From Pseudonocardiales bacterium (lineage in GTDB: Bacteria; Actinomycetota; Actinomycetes; Mycobacteriales; Pseudonocardiaceae): 35,875 nt of DNA. Within the stretch, counting starts at the first letter, position 1. Each line of letters opens with the position of its first letter. Below, piece by piece: positions 3,386 through 33,962 of the stretch. The stretch is taken from the NCBI GenBank assembly GCA_025465385.1, contig JAODNG010000435.1:1-35875 (forward strand), written 5' to 3'. Made by a program: the position numbers and the translations under genes. The notes under the pieces were generated by a model. That model had not been told where the DNA came from, made no database searches, and saw only the letters and a program-made list of their open reading frames with translations.

Positions 3386-3457
3386 AACCGGGAAGATTTA
3401 CGTGCGGCTACTGATTGCCGGTGGCGGTACACCTGGGCAGGGTATGGGAAGCCGAAT

Positions 3458-3500
3458 CGGGAATGCCACCGATGCGGTGTGTTTCCCGGCTAGTACCGGG
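3458..3500 (+). promoter_or_regulatory. Candidate mutually exclusive RNA hairpins just upstream of the SD of the glycine-rich peptide gene (attenuator/riboswitch-like)
   Basis: Hairpin A: CGGGAA (3458-3463)/TTCCCG (3483-3488) enclosing CACC-GATGC-GGTG (3467-3479). Hairpin B: CCCGG (3485-3489)/CCGGG (3496-3500). Both use 3485-3488. SD AGGAGG at 3513-3518. Confidence 0.45.
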
Positions 3501-3523
3501 ACGACTTTTCCTAGGAGGATTTC

Positions 3524-3799
3524 ATGTCTGACGCGGTGGGTTTTGTGGAGATCGACGGGCAGCATGTGGAGCTACTGCCGGCCCGTACGGTCCTGTCGCT
3601 GTTCAGCGCCGGTGGTTCGGGCGGCGGCCGTGGCGGCAACGGCGGCGTGGGTGGCGAGGGCGGCGTAGGCCGTGGTGGCCTCGGTATCAACGCTCTGAAT
3701 ATCAACGCGTTTGGTGACCAGACCAACAGTGCCGGTGACGGCATCGGTGGCGCGGGCGGCAGCGCCGATGGCGGTGCCGGCGGCTCTGTGTCGGGCTGA
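3524..3799 (+). CDS. Small glycine-rich peptide (91 aa) with a non-glycine N-terminal 'leader-like' segment; function unknown
   Basis: SD AGGAGG 5 nt before ATG; MSDAVGFVEIDGQHVELLPARTVLSLFSAGGSGGGRGGNGGVGGEGGVGRGGLGINALNINAFGDQTNSAGDGIGGAGGSADGGAGGSVSG; strong hairpin downstream; no competing recognisable gene on the other strand. Confidence 0.8.
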   Translation: MSDAVGFVEIDGQHVELLPARTVLSLFSAGGSGGGRGGNGGVGGEGGVGRGGLGINALNINAFGDQTNSAGDGIGGAGGSADGGAGGSVSG

Positions 3800-3808
3800 T
3801 AAGTCGCG

Positions 3809-3844
3809 GCGGTGCCGTTGGATGACGACGTGCGGTGCCGTTGG
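3809..3844 (+). repeat. 13-bp direct repeat GCGGTGCCGTTGG (two copies)
   Basis: Copies at 3809-3821 and 3832-3844, between the peptide stop codon and the terminator-like hairpin. Confidence 0.6.
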
Positions 3845-3847
3845 CCA

Positions 3848-3880
3848 GGGAGGGGTGGTTTCGACGCGGCCACCCCTCCC
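3848..3880 (+). terminator. Terminator-like hairpin downstream of the glycine-rich peptide gene
   Basis: Perfect 11-bp inverted repeat GGGAGGGGTGG (3848-3858)/CCACCCCTCCC (3870-3880), 11-nt loop; no U tract. Confidence 0.7.
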
Positions 3881-4077
3881 GCCATCATCGAACTACTCAC
3901 AGTATCGGCAGGATGCGATTGCAATGTGCGGTTGTCAACGTCTCCAGTCGTGCTCTGAGGTCGAGGGATGTGCGCATTTGTCGTCTTGAGAATGGTGGTT
4001 GCCACAGCCTGAGCAGGGCTGCCAGGCTCGCTTAGATCAACGGCAAACTAACTGAAGCTGCACCGGGCGAGCGCCAG

Positions 4078-24627: not shown

Positions 24628-25488
24628 CTAATGGTTTACCTTCGACGATAGCCCTGATGCCTCCACCGATCGGGTGGCGCTGCGCCGGCGCCGAGTGCTG
24701 AGCAGTGCAAGGGCGTAGCCGCCGGTGGCGACGGCGAGGATGGCGAAGCTGGGCGGGAGCGCCGGCACTGTGTAGCTGAGCGCGAGGCCTGCCCACATCT
24801 CACCTACCGCAAGGCCGGCGGAGATGAGCAGCGCTGAGTACGGCCGGGTGGTGAGGCGTTGAGCTGTCCCGGCGGGTGCGGCGAGCAGCCCGAGCAGCAG
24901 CAGCGCACCGACGGCTTGGCTCGCCTCGGCGGCGGCGGCGCCGACCAAGGCGAGAAAGACATACCCGAGCATGCGGACCGGAATACCTCGGGCGGCGGCG
25001 ACGGCGTTGTCGATGCTGGCGAACAGCAGCGGTCGAGCGATGGTGACCATGCCAGCGGCGATGACGGCGGCGACGACGACCGCGGTGACCGCCTCGGAGC
25101 GGTTCAAGCCGAAAATTGAGCCGAACAGGACGTTGACGCCGGCGTTGCCGTTGCCGGCGCTGTTGGTGGTGGTGTACAGCGTCAGGAAGAACACGCCAAG
25201 GCCGAGGATCCAGGCGAACACGCTGCCGATCACGACGTCGTCAGCCCTGCCCCGTCCGCCGAGGGCGCCGAGGGCGACGCCCACGCCAATGGTCGCCGCA
25301 AACAGCCCGAACCGCTCGTCGACGCCCAGTGCCAGCGCCGCCAGAGCACCCGTGAACGCCACGTGGCTCAGCGCGTCGCCGGTGAAGACCTGGGCCCGCA
25401 GCACTACGAAGTAGCCAACCAGTCCGGCGGCTGCGGCGATGGCGGTACCGGCGAGCAGGGCGTTGACCAGGAATGACGGCCAGATCAT
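24628..25488 (-). CDS. Zn/Mn-type metal ABC transporter permease (ZnuB/MntB family), copy 2
   Basis: MIWPSFLVNALLAGTAIAAAAGLVGYFVVLRAQVFTGDALSHVAFTGALAALALG...; 'LVGAAAAEASQAVGALLLLGLLAAPAGTAQRL'. The ORF's 55-aa upstream extension overlaps the previous gene. Confidence 0.92.
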   Translation of the reverse strand: MIWPSFLVNALLAGTAIAAAAGLVGYFVVLRAQVFTGDALSHVAFTGALAALALGVDERFGLFAATIGVGVALGALGGRGRADDVVIGSVFAWILGLGVFFLTLYTTTNSAGNGNAGVNVLFGSIFGLNRSEAVTAVVVAAVIAAGMVTIARPLLFASIDNAVAAARGIPVRMLGYVFLALVGAAAAEASQAVGALLLLGLLAAPAGTAQRLTTRPYSALLISAGLAVGEMWAGLALSYTVPALPPSFAILAVATGGYALALLSTRRRRSATRSVEASGLSSKVNH

Positions 25489-26393
25489 GGCGCGGTCCAC
25501 GTTGGCGTCGGGCTCACTTCGGTAGTTCCGGCCCGCCACCGGGACCGCGTATGGCGGACTCCCTGGGCGGCCACATAACCGGCGAAGGCGAAGCTGGTCA
25601 CGAAAAACCCGACCGGAAATGGGGTGTAGTAGGCCACGCTCAGGCCGAGCCACGTGACGAGCAGCCCGATCGTGACTGTCAGAGCCAGCGCGCGGCCAGG
25701 TCGCGCGGTCAACGCCTGCGCGGTCGCCGCGGGCATCACCAGCAAGGCGAACACCAGCAGGGTCCCGGTGATCTGGCTGGCTTCGGCCGTCGCGGCACCG
25801 AGGAGCACCAGAAATGCCACCGACAGGGCGCGCACCGGCACGTTGCGGGCGGTCGCCACGTCAGGATCGATCGAGGCGAAGGCCAGCGGGCGACCGATCA
25901 CCGCCAGGGCGGCAAGCGACAAAGCGGCGACGACTCCCAGAAGGGTCACCTGTCCGGTGCTGATTCCCAGGAAGTTGCCGAACAGCAGCGCATTGATGCC
26001 ATTGAGGAATCCTTTGTAGAGCGCCACGAACAGAAATCCGCACGCTAAGGCGAAAGACTGGACAGTGCCGGTGACCGCTGACTCCTCCGAGTAGCCACCG
26101 GGTCCGGCGCGGGGCAACGCTGCGATGACCAGGGCTCCGGCCAGGCAGAACGCGAAGTAGCCGTAGCTGGCAGCGACACCGATCAGGACCGCGCCAGCTG
26201 CGCCAGGAAAACCGATCAGCGACAAGGTATGGCCGGCGAAGCTCTGCCGACGCAACACCATGAACCAGCCCATCACCCCGGCCAGCACCGCGACGATGGT
26301 GCCCGCGCGAAAGGCGTTGACCATGAACGGGAACGACCACATCTCCTGCAAATCGATGATCGGGTTCCAGCTCGGACTCGCTGCGAAGATCAC
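25485..26393 (-). CDS. Zn/Mn-type metal ABC transporter permease, copy 1
   Basis: GTG start at 26393 (VIFAASPSWNPIIDLQEMWSFPFMVNAFRAGTIVAVLAGVMGWFMVLRRQSFAGHTLSLIGFPGAAGAVLIGV) with CAGGAG SD. The N-terminal half of the 574-aa track ORF is out-of-frame read-through of the ATPase gene. Confidence 0.9.
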   Translation of the reverse strand: MIFAASPSWNPIIDLQEMWSFPFMVNAFRAGTIVAVLAGVMGWFMVLRRQSFAGHTLSLIGFPGAAGAVLIGVAASYGYFAFCLAGALVIAALPRAGPGGYSEESAVTGTVQSFALACGFLFVALYKGFLNGINALLFGNFLGISTGQVTLLGVVAALSLAALAVIGRPLAFASIDPDVATARNVPVRALSVAFLVLLGAATAEASQITGTLLVFALLVMPAATAQALTARPGRALALTVTIGLLVTWLGLSVAYYTPFPVGFFVTSFAFAGYVAAQGVRHTRSRWRAGTTEVSPTPTWTAP

Positions 26394-27310
26394 GGCTCCT
26401 GCCAGGTGTGCCGCTCGGCGTGACCTTGACACCTTTCGGGGTGGCCGATGACGACTAACCGGCCGTCGGAGGCGGTGAGCACCTCGATTGGGGTGCCGAA
26501 CAGCTCGGTCAGCGTCGGACCGGTGATCACCTCGCGGGGTGAGCCGATCTTCGAACCGCCTGGAGCGAGATAAACCACGGTATCCAGGTGCGACAAGATC
26601 GGGTTGACGTCGTGCGCGACCATGATCACGGCCACCCGTTGCGCACGGCAGATTCTGGCGATGAGGGCAGCGACGGCGGCCTGATTCGGCAGATCGAGGC
26701 TGTCCAGTGGCTCGTCGAGCAACAGCAGATCGGGAGCGGGCGCCAGTGCCTGGGCGATCAACAGGCGTTGCTGCTCGCCCCCGGAAAGCTCTCCGACCGG
26801 GCGATCGGCATATGCGCTGGCACCGACGAGATTGATGACCTCCTCGACGCGCGCGGTGGTTGCGCGCCGCGCCGTGCCGCCTGGCCACGGCCACCAGGCC
26901 GGCAGTGGAAGGCCCCACCGATGCCCGTCCAAGCCCAGCCGCACGATGTCGCGACCGCGCACCCGCAGAGATGGGTCGAAGCTGCGGCGTTGGGGCAGAT
27001 ATCCAATCCGCTCGTTGGCTCGTCCAGCAGGGCCGGCCAGCACCCGCACCTCGCCCTCGATCAGGGGTAGCGCCCCCAAAATGACCTGGATGAGCGTGGA
27101 CTTGCCGACCCCGTTGGGTCCCAACACCGCAACGAACTCCCCGGCGGCAATCGTCAGATTCAGCCCACTCCACAGCCGCCGACCGCCTCGCTCGACCGCC
27201 GCATCGCACAGGGTGATCACGGGACCGACTGGCCGTTGCTCCTCCTTCCGCGGCGCAACGGTGTTGCTGGGCTGCTGATCCACGTCGGAATTCAGCGAGT
27301 GCGCAGTCAT
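26390..27310 (-). CDS. Metal ABC transporter ATP-binding protein
   Basis: Walker A 'AVLGPNGVGKSTLIQVI', signature 'LSGGEQQRLLIAQALAPAPDLLLLDEPLDSLDLPNQ'. Confidence 0.95.
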   Translation of the reverse strand: MTAHSLNSDVDQQPSNTVAPRKEEQRPVGPVITLCDAAVERGGRRLWSGLNLTIAAGEFVAVLGPNGVGKSTLIQVILGALPLIEGEVRVLAGPAGRANERIGYLPQRRSFDPSLRVRGRDIVRLGLDGHRWGLPLPAWWPWPGGTARRATTARVEEVINLVGASAYADRPVGELSGGEQQRLLIAQALAPAPDLLLLDEPLDSLDLPNQAAVAALIARICRAQRVAVIMVAHDVNPILSHLDTVVYLAPGGSKIGSPREVITGPTLTELFGTPIEVLTASDGRLVVIGHPERCQGHAERHTWQEP

Positions 27311-28281
27311 CGGGCGGCTGCTTTCGACAGTGCTTGCTCGATACCTTCGAGCTGGCCGACCTGCCAGTCCTGGAAGCTGGCGGTGGCCGGCACGAGTGTC
27401 TCGGTGACTGTTGCCACCGGGATGCCCTGGTCCTTGGCTGCGGTTACCAGAGCCGCCACGTCCGGGGTCGAGTTCTGCCTGTTGAACACGAATACCTTGA
27501 TCTGCTTGGTCTTGATCTGCTGATCCACCGTGATCTTGTCAGCCGCGGTCGGATCGGTGCCTTGGCTCACCGCGTCCAGGAACGGCTCCGGGGTGGCCAT
27601 CTTCAATCCCAGGTCTTCGGCCAACGGGGTCACGATCGATTCCGAGGCCCCGATCGGGGTTCCGCTGTACTTGCTCTTGATGTCGGCGATGAGCTGGTTG
27701 TAGCGGGCCAGACCCCGGGTCTCGTAGTCCTGTTTCTGCTGATCGAAATAGCCGGCGTCGGCCGGGTCGATCCGTTTGTAGTCGGCGGCGATCCGCTCGA
27801 TCACCTGGTGTACGTCATCCGGGGAGTACCAGCGATGCGGGTTGCCGCCCTTCTTAACCCCCACCAGATCCCCCACCGTCAACACCCACCGCGCCGGCGC
27901 CGGATTCGCGCTGACCACCTTGGCGACCCACGGGTCGTAGCCGGCCCCGTTGGCGATCACGTACTGGGCGGTCGCCAGGGCCCGCCCGTCAGCCGGGGTC
28001 GGTTCATAGTCGTGCGGGTCGGCGTCCGGACTCGCGACGATGCTGCGCACGGCGACGTGCACGCCACCCAGCTGCGTGGCGATGCTGCCCCAAAAGTTCT
28101 CCGCCGCAACCACCGCGATTTTCGCGTTCCCGCTGGGCTGACCCGCGGGCCCGCCACCGGTGGGGGCCGTGGTGGCACAACTTGCCAGCAGACTGGCGAG
28201 CGTGACCGCCACAGCTGCGACTGCGCCCACCGGTAAGACCCGACGCCATACTCGAGCTCCGCTCACGTTCCGCCTCGTCAC
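27307..28281 (-). CDS. Metal ABC transporter substrate-binding lipoprotein (ZnuA/cluster A-I family)
   Basis: Lipobox 'LASLLASC'; 'KIAVVAAENFWGSIATQLGG', 'DPHDYEPTPADGRALATAQYVIANGAGYDPW', 'GNPHRWYSPDDVHQVIERIAADYKRIDP'; 4-nt overlap with the ATPase gene. Confidence 0.93.
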   Translation of the reverse strand: MTRRNVSGARVWRRVLPVGAVAAVAVTLASLLASCATTAPTGGGPAGQPSGNAKIAVVAAENFWGSIATQLGGVHVAVRSIVASPDADPHDYEPTPADGRALATAQYVIANGAGYDPWVAKVVSANPAPARWVLTVGDLVGVKKGGNPHRWYSPDDVHQVIERIAADYKRIDPADAGYFDQQKQDYETRGLARYNQLIADIKSKYSGTPIGASESIVTPLAEDLGLKMATPEPFLDAVSQGTDPTAADKITVDQQIKTKQIKVFVFNRQNSTPDVAALVTAAKDQGIPVATVTETLVPATASFQDWQVGQLEGIEQALSKAAAR

Positions 28282-31314: not shown

Positions 31315-32643
31315 TCAGGTCAGGTCCCCCTGGTCGGCGTCCCGCGCGCACCGGAAACCGGTGAAGATCTGCCGGCGCACCGGGTGATCCCAGTTGCGGA
31401 AGGTCCCCCGGCAGGCCGCTGCATCGGTGCCGAAGGAGCCGCCACGCAGCATCCGGTAGTCCCCGCCAAAGAACACCTCGGAGTACTCCCGGTACGGGAA
31501 CGGGGCGAAGCCCGGGTATCCGGAGAACCCGGAAGACGTCCACTCCCACACGTCGCCGATCAGCTGGTGCACGCCCAGCGGGGAGGCGCCGGCCGGGTAA
31601 CTGCCCGCAGCAGCGGGCTGCAAATGTCGTTGTCCCAGGTTGGCGTGCGCCGGAGTGGGATCCTCATCACCCCACGGAAAGCGGCGGGACCGGCCGGTGG
31701 CCGGATCGAATCGGGCGGCCTTCTCCCACTCCACTTCGGTGGGCAGGCGCTTGCCGGTCCAGGCCGCATAGGCCTGGGCCTCGAAGAAGCAGACATGCAC
31801 GACGGGCTCGTCCAGCGGGACCGGCTCGATGATGCCGAACCGGTTGCGCCACCACGACCCGCTGTCGAGGAACCAGAACTCCGGGCCGACCAGGGCCGCC
31901 TCACACCGGTGCGCCCAGCCCCGCTCACTCCACCACCGCGGGTTGTCGTAACCCCCCTCAGCCAGGAATCGCTGGTAATCGCCATTGGTCACTAGAACGG
32001 TGTCCAACCAGTACGCATTGGTGCGGGCGCGGTGCGCGGGGCGCTCATTGTCCAGTGACCACGGCTCGGCGGAGGTGCCCATAGTGAACTCGCCGGCGGG
32101 CACCAGCACCTCGTCGGGAAGGTGCAGGGAGCGCTGCGGCTGGGGTGGGGGGGCGTGCAACGCAGCCGGGCCGGCCCGAAGCTGGTGCGTCGCCAGCATC
32201 GTCTCGTCGTGCTGCTGTTCGTGCTGCACGATCATCCCGAAGGCGAATCCGTGCTCCACCAGCCTGCGCCCCTCCAGGGGCGCGCGGTCCAGAACGTCGA
32301 GCACCTTGCTGCGGACCTCGGTCAGATAACGTCGGGTCTCGGTGGGGTCGAGCAACGGCAGCGCCGGGCGGTTGGGCCGGGGGTGCTTGAACGCGTCGTA
32401 GAGCTCATCGATGTCGGCCCGGACCGGGTCGCGGCCACCCACGTCCCGAACCAACCAGAGTTCCTCCTGGTTGCCGATGTGAGCGAAATCCCAAACCAGC
32501 GGGGACATGATGTGGGAGTGTTGGCAGACCAACTCGCGGTCATCGATCGCGTCGGTCAGCGCGGCGCTGCGGGCCCGGGTGCGGGCGAGCTCAGCAGCGA
32601 GATGGTCGCGCAGGGCGGCGGTGCCCCGCTCGGTGATCGGCAT
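31315..32643 (-). CDS. egtB: Ergothioneine biosynthesis sulfoxide synthase EgtB
   Basis: 'SHIMSPLVWDFAHIGNQEELWL', 'EHGFAFGMIVQHEQQHDETML', 'GGDYRMLRGGSFGTDAAACRGTFRNWDHPVRRQIFTGFRCARD'. Start MPITERGT at 32643. Confidence 0.96.
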   Translation of the reverse strand: MPITERGTAALRDHLAAELARTRARSAALTDAIDDRELVCQHSHIMSPLVWDFAHIGNQEELWLVRDVGGRDPVRADIDELYDAFKHPRPNRPALPLLDPTETRRYLTEVRSKVLDVLDRAPLEGRRLVEHGFAFGMIVQHEQQHDETMLATHQLRAGPAALHAPPPQPQRSLHLPDEVLVPAGEFTMGTSAEPWSLDNERPAHRARTNAYWLDTVLVTNGDYQRFLAEGGYDNPRWWSERGWAHRCEAALVGPEFWFLDSGSWWRNRFGIIEPVPLDEPVVHVCFFEAQAYAAWTGKRLPTEVEWEKAARFDPATGRSRRFPWGDEDPTPAHANLGQRHLQPAAAGSYPAGASPLGVHQLIGDVWEWTSSGFSGYPGFAPFPYREYSEVFFGGDYRMLRGGSFGTDAAACRGTFRNWDHPVRRQIFTGFRCARDADQGDLT

Positions 32644-32645
32644 GG

Positions 32646-33962
32646 TCACAGCGGGTGGCCTCCGTGGAGTCGGGTCGAGCCGGCCGTGGCACTGGCGAGA
32701 TCGTCTGCTGGGCAGCGACCGCGCCGGACCCGGTGCTCGGTGATCTCTTCCACGAGCAGCTGCAGTTCGGCTGGCGCGTCCAGCGCGGGCAGGGCTTGGC
32801 GGGCCAACTCGAATACCGCGATTGCGGCCGCGGCCAGAGTGTCGTCGCGCAGGCCACGTCGCGCAGCCGATAACCATCGCCCGACGGTCGGCGCGCAGGC
32901 ATCCCGGGCGGCCACGGTGACCGCGGGATCGGCAAGGAGGGCGGCGATGACCGCCACCGGCACCAGCCACTGCCCCATTGGCTGGGTGTCGAGGTAGCGG
33001 ACCTCGAGGTGACCCTGCGGACGGACCGGCGGGAACAACGTAGTCAGGTGATAGTCCAGGTCAGCGGTGTTGGGGCGCCCGGGTAGCGCCCCGGACAGCC
33101 AGTCGGCGAAGGTGACCCCGGTTGGCACGTGCCATTTGCCCCAGGCACGGCGCTGGCACAGCACCGGGGTGTCCAGCGCGCGGCGGGCCCAATCGGCGGC
33201 GGGGTCCCAGCCCGCAGCCAGGCCCCACGGCACCCGGCTGGGCCGAGTCCGGGCTGGATCCAGCGCGAACCATGCCTGCATCCGGGACGACGCCCATCCG
33301 GTGCGCCGACCACCTAGCCAGGGGGAATTGGCGAATGCCGCTAGCAGCACGGGCCCGAGATCGTGTAGTGCGGACCAGCGCAGCGCCACCTCGGCAGCAG
33401 TGCCTGCGTCCAGGCACACCTGCACCGCCGCGGTGGAGCACATCATCGCCCGGCCCATCGGACCTATCCGGTCGAAGGCAGTCTCCATGGCGGCGTAGCG
33501 CGGAATGTCGATCAGCCGGCGGGACGGACGATGCGGGTCGGAGCCCAATCCGATGAGGACCAGACCCGCTGGATCGAGTAGATCGGTCAGTGCGGCGGTA
33601 TCGCCTTCGACGGTGGCGATGAGCTCGGTCAGCGAGGCACAGGGCGGGCTGGAGATCTCGAGCTGACCACCGGGTTCGACCGTAACAGTGGAGCCGTGTG
33701 GCAGAGGGTACTGGGGGCTGTCGGGGACAAGAGAATTCGGCGCGTACCCGCCGAGCGTCTCGGCGAGATGCCTGGCCTGCAACGGGCGGTGGGGGTTGCC
33801 GGAATGCTGCACCACCCACTCGAGTTCGGCGCCGAGCAGCTTGGGGGGTCCGTGCTTGAAACACACCGACGCGACGTACACCTCGGCCTCTGCCCGACTG
33901 CGCAAAACCGTCGGCGGTGCGACTGCCGGTGATGCCCACGGCAGCGTTGCCTCTGGAGTCAC
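32646..33962 (-). CDS. egtA: Glutamate-cysteine ligase EgtA
   Basis: 'GAELEWVVQHSGNPHRPLQ', 'STVTVEPGGQLEISSPPCASLTELI', 'MMCSTAAVQVCLDAG', 'LEVRYLDTQPMGQWLVPVAVIAALL'; GTG start with GGGAGG SD; directly upstream of egtB. Confidence 0.95.
   Translation of the reverse strand: MTPEATLPWASPAVAPPTVLRSRAEAEVYVASVCFKHGPPKLLGAELEWVVQHSGNPHRPLQARHLAETLGGYAPNSLVPDSPQYPLPHGSTVTVEPGGQLEISSPPCASLTELIATVEGDTAALTDLLDPAGLVLIGLGSDPHRPSRRLIDIPRYAAMETAFDRIGPMGRAMMCSTAAVQVCLDAGTAAEVALRWSALHDLGPVLLAAFANSPWLGGRRTGWASSRMQAWFALDPARTRPSRVPWGLAAGWDPAADWARRALDTPVLCQRRAWGKWHVPTGVTFADWLSGALPGRPNTADLDYHLTTLFPPVRPQGHLEVRYLDTQPMGQWLVPVAVIAALLADPAVTVAARDACAPTVGRWLSAARRGLRDDTLAAAAIAVFELARQALPALDAPAELQLLVEEITEHRVRRGRCPADDLASATAGSTRLHGGHPL

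Follow-up and report, generated by a model that had tools for sequence, protein, structure and literature searches.

The gene at positions 3524-3799 of the window, by which the whole analysed stretch of 35,875 nucleotides from a Pseudonocardiales bacterium is meant, probably encodes a precursor peptide, one of about 22 that would undergo proteolytic maturation in a system directed by their leader (we put the probability of this reading at roughly 0.72). The N-terminal block of 27 amino acids, with the core motif E-L-L-P-x-R-T-[VT]-[ML], would be the recognition leader. The following features of the window, all on the forward strand, are relevant:

3387..3520, forward strand: conserved upstream element of about 125-134 nt that ends at the ribosome-binding site, defined by nhmmer, a covariance model and ortholog conservation
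3513-3519, forward strand: ribosome-binding site AGGAGGA; columns -11 to -5 are G/A-rich across 53 family members
3524-3799, forward strand: precursor reading frame with ATG start, translating exactly to 91 amino acids and a stop
3524..3604, forward strand: leader region MSDAVGFVEIDGQHVELLPARTVLSLF, codons 1-27, with near-invariant E16 L17 L18 P19 x R21 T22 V23 x S25
3605..3796, forward strand: Gly-rich core (45% Gly) that contains GLGINALNINAFGDQTNSAGDG, a segment recurring in its subtype
3797..3799, forward strand: stop codon TGA
3840..3886, forward strand: strong GC-rich hairpin 3' of the gene

The reading frame of the original prediction is thus real, with its exact translation, its start codon and a ribosome-binding site, and also the stated lack of Cys agrees with the translation. 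The peptide matched no family in Pfam (E up to 10) or NCBIfam, and tblastn found no match in phages and plasmids. A predicted fold of the peptide was of low confidence (mean pLDDT 43.6) and was set aside. The hairpin behind the gene folds with -32.4 kcal/mol (z -3.7), a stability that was reached in 0/200 shuffles, and it is a possible transcript end that lacks a T-run; a T-tailed terminator was sought downstream of the gene and not found. Elsewhere in the window, the reverse strand encodes a ZnuA-type binding protein together with an ABC-3 permease, which is a zinc/metal uptake locus (25485-28281), and a protein with FGE-sulfatase and DinB_2 domains (31315-32970), a domain pair that we take to be that of the ergothioneine enzyme EgtB.

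The gene had been regarded as an orphan, and this does not hold. A leader profile search of the whole host genome, that of a soil actinobacterium, found 22 strong copies of the leader (E down to 3e-20), a whole-genome search with the peptide gave 25 matches, and each of ten congeneric genomes contains 5-26 leader copies. A scan of GTDB contigs yielded 22 relatives, all from Pseudonocardiales/Pseudonocardiaceae or from otherwise unplaced actinobacterial MAGs. Family members are about 60-110 amino acids long and share the 27-residue leader consensus MSDALSFAExDGQHVELLPARTVLSxF, in which ELLPxRTVxS is nearly invariant; in the loci from the GTDB scan, the apparent conservation of ELLPARTV is raised because the scan patterns included this string, and the leader HMM, which was derived from these loci and the copies of the host genome, inflates apparent conservation there as well. 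The predicted split into leader and core is evident from 54 members, in which the information content is about 2.5-4.3 bits per column over columns 1-27 and drops sharply, to about 1.4-2.3 bits, at column 28 and beyond, so that the two-block layout goes beyond mere composition. Compared in pairs, the copies of the host genome are on average 72% identical in the leader and 35% identical in the core, which gives a positive answer to the question raised with the prediction, namely whether the leader stays while the Gly-rich part varies. The tails of these copies are variable, mostly Gly-rich and in most cases free of Cys, and as the Gly content of the cores ranges from 14% to 55%, with some Gly-poor copies at 14-17%, the family is defined by its leader and not by its Gly content. 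In a codon comparison of the window gene with its ortholog at locus L005, pS was 0.51 and pN 0.05 in the leader, and pS was 0.45 and pN 0.10 in the core. Pooled over orthologous and paralogous pairs, dN/dS is about 0.22 for the leader and about 0.35 for the core. Purifying selection acts on both parts, and it is stronger on the leader.

Some of the dispersed copies occupy corresponding positions in the genomes of related species (orthologous synteny), and a clustering of their neighbours revealed no enzyme in common. For this reason, distant loci with clustered genes were examined, and there a protease is encoded beside leader genes. In the host genome, this protease is represented by one gene:

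Contig C359, 528-1871, reverse strand: integral-membrane HExxH metalloprotease with four leader genes beside it

The protease combines an N-terminal PqqD/RRE-like domain with an M50-like membrane domain of the type HExxH...LDGYY. Its best NCBIfam matches are daptide_HExxH (E 7e-28) and the YydH/LiaK RiPP_HExxH family (E 8e-10), both below the cut-offs, with 97.9, 83.2 and 93.5 bits where 300 are required in the first case and 37.5-44.5 bits where 225 are required in the second; also Pfam M50 matches only weakly and below its cut-off (E 0.21). Residues H207, E208, H211 and D303 are invariant in 14/14 protease sequences, and an HExxH motif with a downstream Asp ligand in a membrane protein, which is characteristic of M50 (site-2 protease-like) enzymes, argues for proteolysis as its predicted activity. 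The enzyme is a predicted zinc enzyme. By profile comparison with hhalign, the first 90 residues of the protease match PqqD at E 4.8e-6, compared to 0.49 and 0.83 for reversed controls, which points to a putative leader-binding RRE domain in this partner. The AlphaFold model places strands and helices of the N-terminal domain in a predicted beta3-alpha3 order, and its top two fold matches in the PDB both show the RRE protein TbiB1 in complex with its leader peptide (E 0.18, prob 0.99); as the model is poor (mean pLDDT 46.6, built with two sequences) and the E-value not significant, this match is suggestive and of supporting value. A search of viral contigs with the protease confirmed no relative.

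Protease and leader are tightly linked. In an order sample of 399 genomes, leader matches occur in 14, which are the window's own genome and 13 others. All 14 have the protease, and in 13/13 of the others an HExxH membrane protein is encoded close to a leader gene, in the typical case not more than about 2 kb away, a proximity that spans seven genera. The same is seen from the side of the enzyme, as 20/20 genomes with the strong protease subtype (E at most 1.8e-147 with the protease profile in the order sample) have an adjacent leader gene, which in six of the 20 was missed by the leader HMM and has the shorter form MFEDQ/MFENQ...LLPARTT. A short reading frame with the motif is present at 33/34 strong-subtype loci and at 0/25 control loci. 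The hypergeometric P for co-occurrence is 1.6e-21 by genome, a value that is inflated by the relatedness of the sampled genomes, and 1.9e-10 by genus. Within the window's genus, 11/11 genomes have protease and leader, several of them with a second protease. A weaker protease subtype alone, with no leader match, was seen in one g14 genome and in two g68 genomes, so that the two parts are present or absent together even inside a genus.

No modifying enzyme recurs near this pair at the protease-precursor loci of several genera. Among 35 proteins encoded around protease loci in these genera, Pfam searches showed recurrence of LuxR/AAA regulators (seven), and the other families, of which many have housekeeping roles, occurred one or two times each; YcaO, LanB/M and radical SAM proteins were not among 25 of the 104 Pfam families from these 35 neighbours. 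The window agrees with what had been noted for it, as no YcaO-, LanB- or LanM-type gene is present among the subset of its reading frames that was scanned with Pfam. In one related MAG, a DUF2807 protein (putative adhesin, head GIN domain) is encoded immediately after the protease gene (L007:10864-11901, forward strand).

The original suggestion of a RiPP-like or secreted-peptide precursor can therefore be kept for the conserved leader and the variable core, which follow the general layout of RiPPs, but not with respect to an enzyme of a classical RiPP class, as none recurs in the neighbourhoods. It could be argued that the core is first modified by an unlinked enzyme and only then freed of its leader by the protease, which would make the peptide a true modified RiPP precursor of a new class. 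The leader/core layout, the RRE-like domain and the many precursors per genome are known from other RiPP families, and one PqqD-like protein is encoded elsewhere in the host genome, but the missing recurrence of a modifying enzyme near the loci, the variation of the cores in composition and length with no one obvious common residue to modify, and the absence of Cys from most host-genome cores make this unlikely. Somewhat less likely still is an N-terminal block that serves as uncut sorting or anchoring signal, with the membrane protein as translocase or regulator and the peptides as surface scaffolds that keep the block. An export function besides cleavage has been proposed for EpeP-type proteases (PMC10885120), and in four loci of same-family genomes Gly-rich proteins of 432-446 amino acids with signal-peptide-like N-termini adjoin the protease (L076:9743, L077:8906, L078:9692, L084:8740). 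The invariant HExxH residues and the downstream Asp speak for cleavage instead, and a search for the Gly-rich partner in the window's genus, made without a positive control, came out negative. A low-complexity PE-PGRS-like protein or a chance reading frame without any specific system, for which the GGxGG composition could be quoted, can practically be dismissed in view of the conserved non-Gly leader, which is present even on the copies with 14-17% Gly in the core, the purifying selection, the tight linkage to the protease and the failure of the peptide to match any Pfam family.

Nearly all family genes of the window's genus have another part in common. The upstream element was found by nhmmer in front of 52/54 members, nearly always directly before the start codon, with one of the 52 matches belonging to a neighbouring gene in tandem and a few covering only part of the element. 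In the window, covariance model R1 matches at 3387-3526 with 120 bits, and orthologs retain the element even where their synonymous sites have diverged. With the element model, the host genome has 21 matches, compared to 22 leaders, and the congeners show similar counts; of 16 element matches in relatives for which no corresponding leader match was listed, 11 are followed by clear leader reading frames, three by short or decayed ones and two by none. In the host genome, one copy (L044:1424-1569, reverse strand) has no leader reading frame after it and possibly belonged to a precursor that has decayed. At L249 and L252, the element is followed by the short reading frames MSDALGLAEIDEPEIER and MSEALGLAEIDEPEIER, which suggests decay of old precursor copies. 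On contig C359 (locus L031), the four leader genes gave matches to the element and the protease gene gave none, and the searched loci of other genera gave no supported match. It matched no known Rfam family, and sub-threshold Rfam matches look like chance. As the evidence for an RNA structure is weak (mean folding z -0.94 in sense and -0.66 in antisense orientation, and some compensation in a single hairpin of 5 pairs), the element may work at the level of DNA; it may act as promoter/operator or as 5' UTR. The precursors would be expressed as a set through this shared element.

For the proposed leader-directed maturation, it follows from known daptide and epipeptide systems by analogy that the RRE-like domain of the single protease may bind the ELLPxRTV leader, and that the M50-like site may cut near the leader-core boundary. 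The host genome has one protease for 22 candidate substrates, of which four adjoin its gene, and since the window copy is not among these, its processing would have to take place in trans, as with the other dispersed precursors. The Gly-rich core would be released otherwise unmodified and perhaps be exported by the protease itself; an export route beyond the protease was not identified. What the mature peptides do can be stated with clearly less confidence than their maturation. Our best guess is that they are secreted, self-assembling surface or matrix peptides, and this guess is based on their Gly/Asn-rich composition.

Weaker-subtype proteases are common among Actinomycetes, with 47/395 other genomes of a class sample encoding one (E up to 1e-100), and 14 of 36 such loci contain short reading frames with the looser motif E-x-LP-x-R-x-x-[LM] (Fisher P 1.7e-4 relative to controls). 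Looser-motif reading frames of this kind lie beside the protease also on the Streptomyces plasmids NZ_CP102333 and NZ_CP107797, where protease and short reading frames are annotated as hypothetical proteins. These distant loci may belong to one system with the window's family. The RRE/M50-like partner, the upstream element and the related leader motif by distant proteases all go beyond the original prediction. A wider reading, which we hold tentatively and at slightly under even odds, is that such a system is widespread in actinomycetes. An RRE-fused intramembrane metalloprotease would then suffice, with no modifying enzymes, to recognise leaders of the LPxR type and to set free dozens of unmodified, self-assembling peptides encoded in the genome, and in the window's genus a new upstream element would control these peptides jointly.

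A family that annotation has left as hypothetical proteins thereby gains a testable partner in the combination of leader and RRE-protease, and RRE-guided leader recognition is extended to a pathway that apparently has a protease as its only enzyme. One protease with many substrates is useful for studying the specificity of intramembrane metalloproteases, and the related arrangement in Streptomyces makes the system open to genetics. No description of the leader string or of the leader/protease combination was found in the literature, coverage of which was partial, and "undescribed" thus means not found in the literature searched.

Mycobacterial PE-PGRS proteins have a C-terminal part rich in Gly-Gly-x, as do the present peptides, but these have no PE domain, are short, and come with a leader and a partner protease. 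In prochlorosin-type RiPP systems, one trans-acting enzyme serves many dispersed precursors with constant leader and variable core, which is the same principle, whereas the present enzyme is a protease and not a lanthionine synthetase. In epipeptide systems (YydF/EpeX with YydH/EpeP; NCBIfam NF058609), a small peptide owes its maturation, and perhaps its export, to an M50 membrane protease, and EpeP is thought to cleave the peptide as well as to export it (PMC10885120); unlike these, the present system has an unrelated leader, dozens of precursors, and no radical SAM enzyme among the scanned neighbours. Close as well are the daptides (DapP/MpaP; NCBIfam NF041824), the clusters of which are marked by RRE-peptidase fusions, with leader removal assigned to MpaP (PMC10036551). 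Daptides share with the window's family the short multi-copy precursors, a conserved leader motif and the RRE-fused intramembrane metalloprotease, but their leader motif is ELExMEAP and not ELLPxRTV, and the ELExMEAP motif with the invariant C-terminal Thr (PMC10036551) is absent from the present sequences. Also, the daptide set of aminotransferase, dehydrogenase, methyltransferase and transporter does not recur at the present loci, the protease is far below the family cut-off, and the precursors are dispersed over the genome. The parts of the system thus resemble known ones, while its leader, its protease-only layout and its number of precursors set it apart from every family tested.
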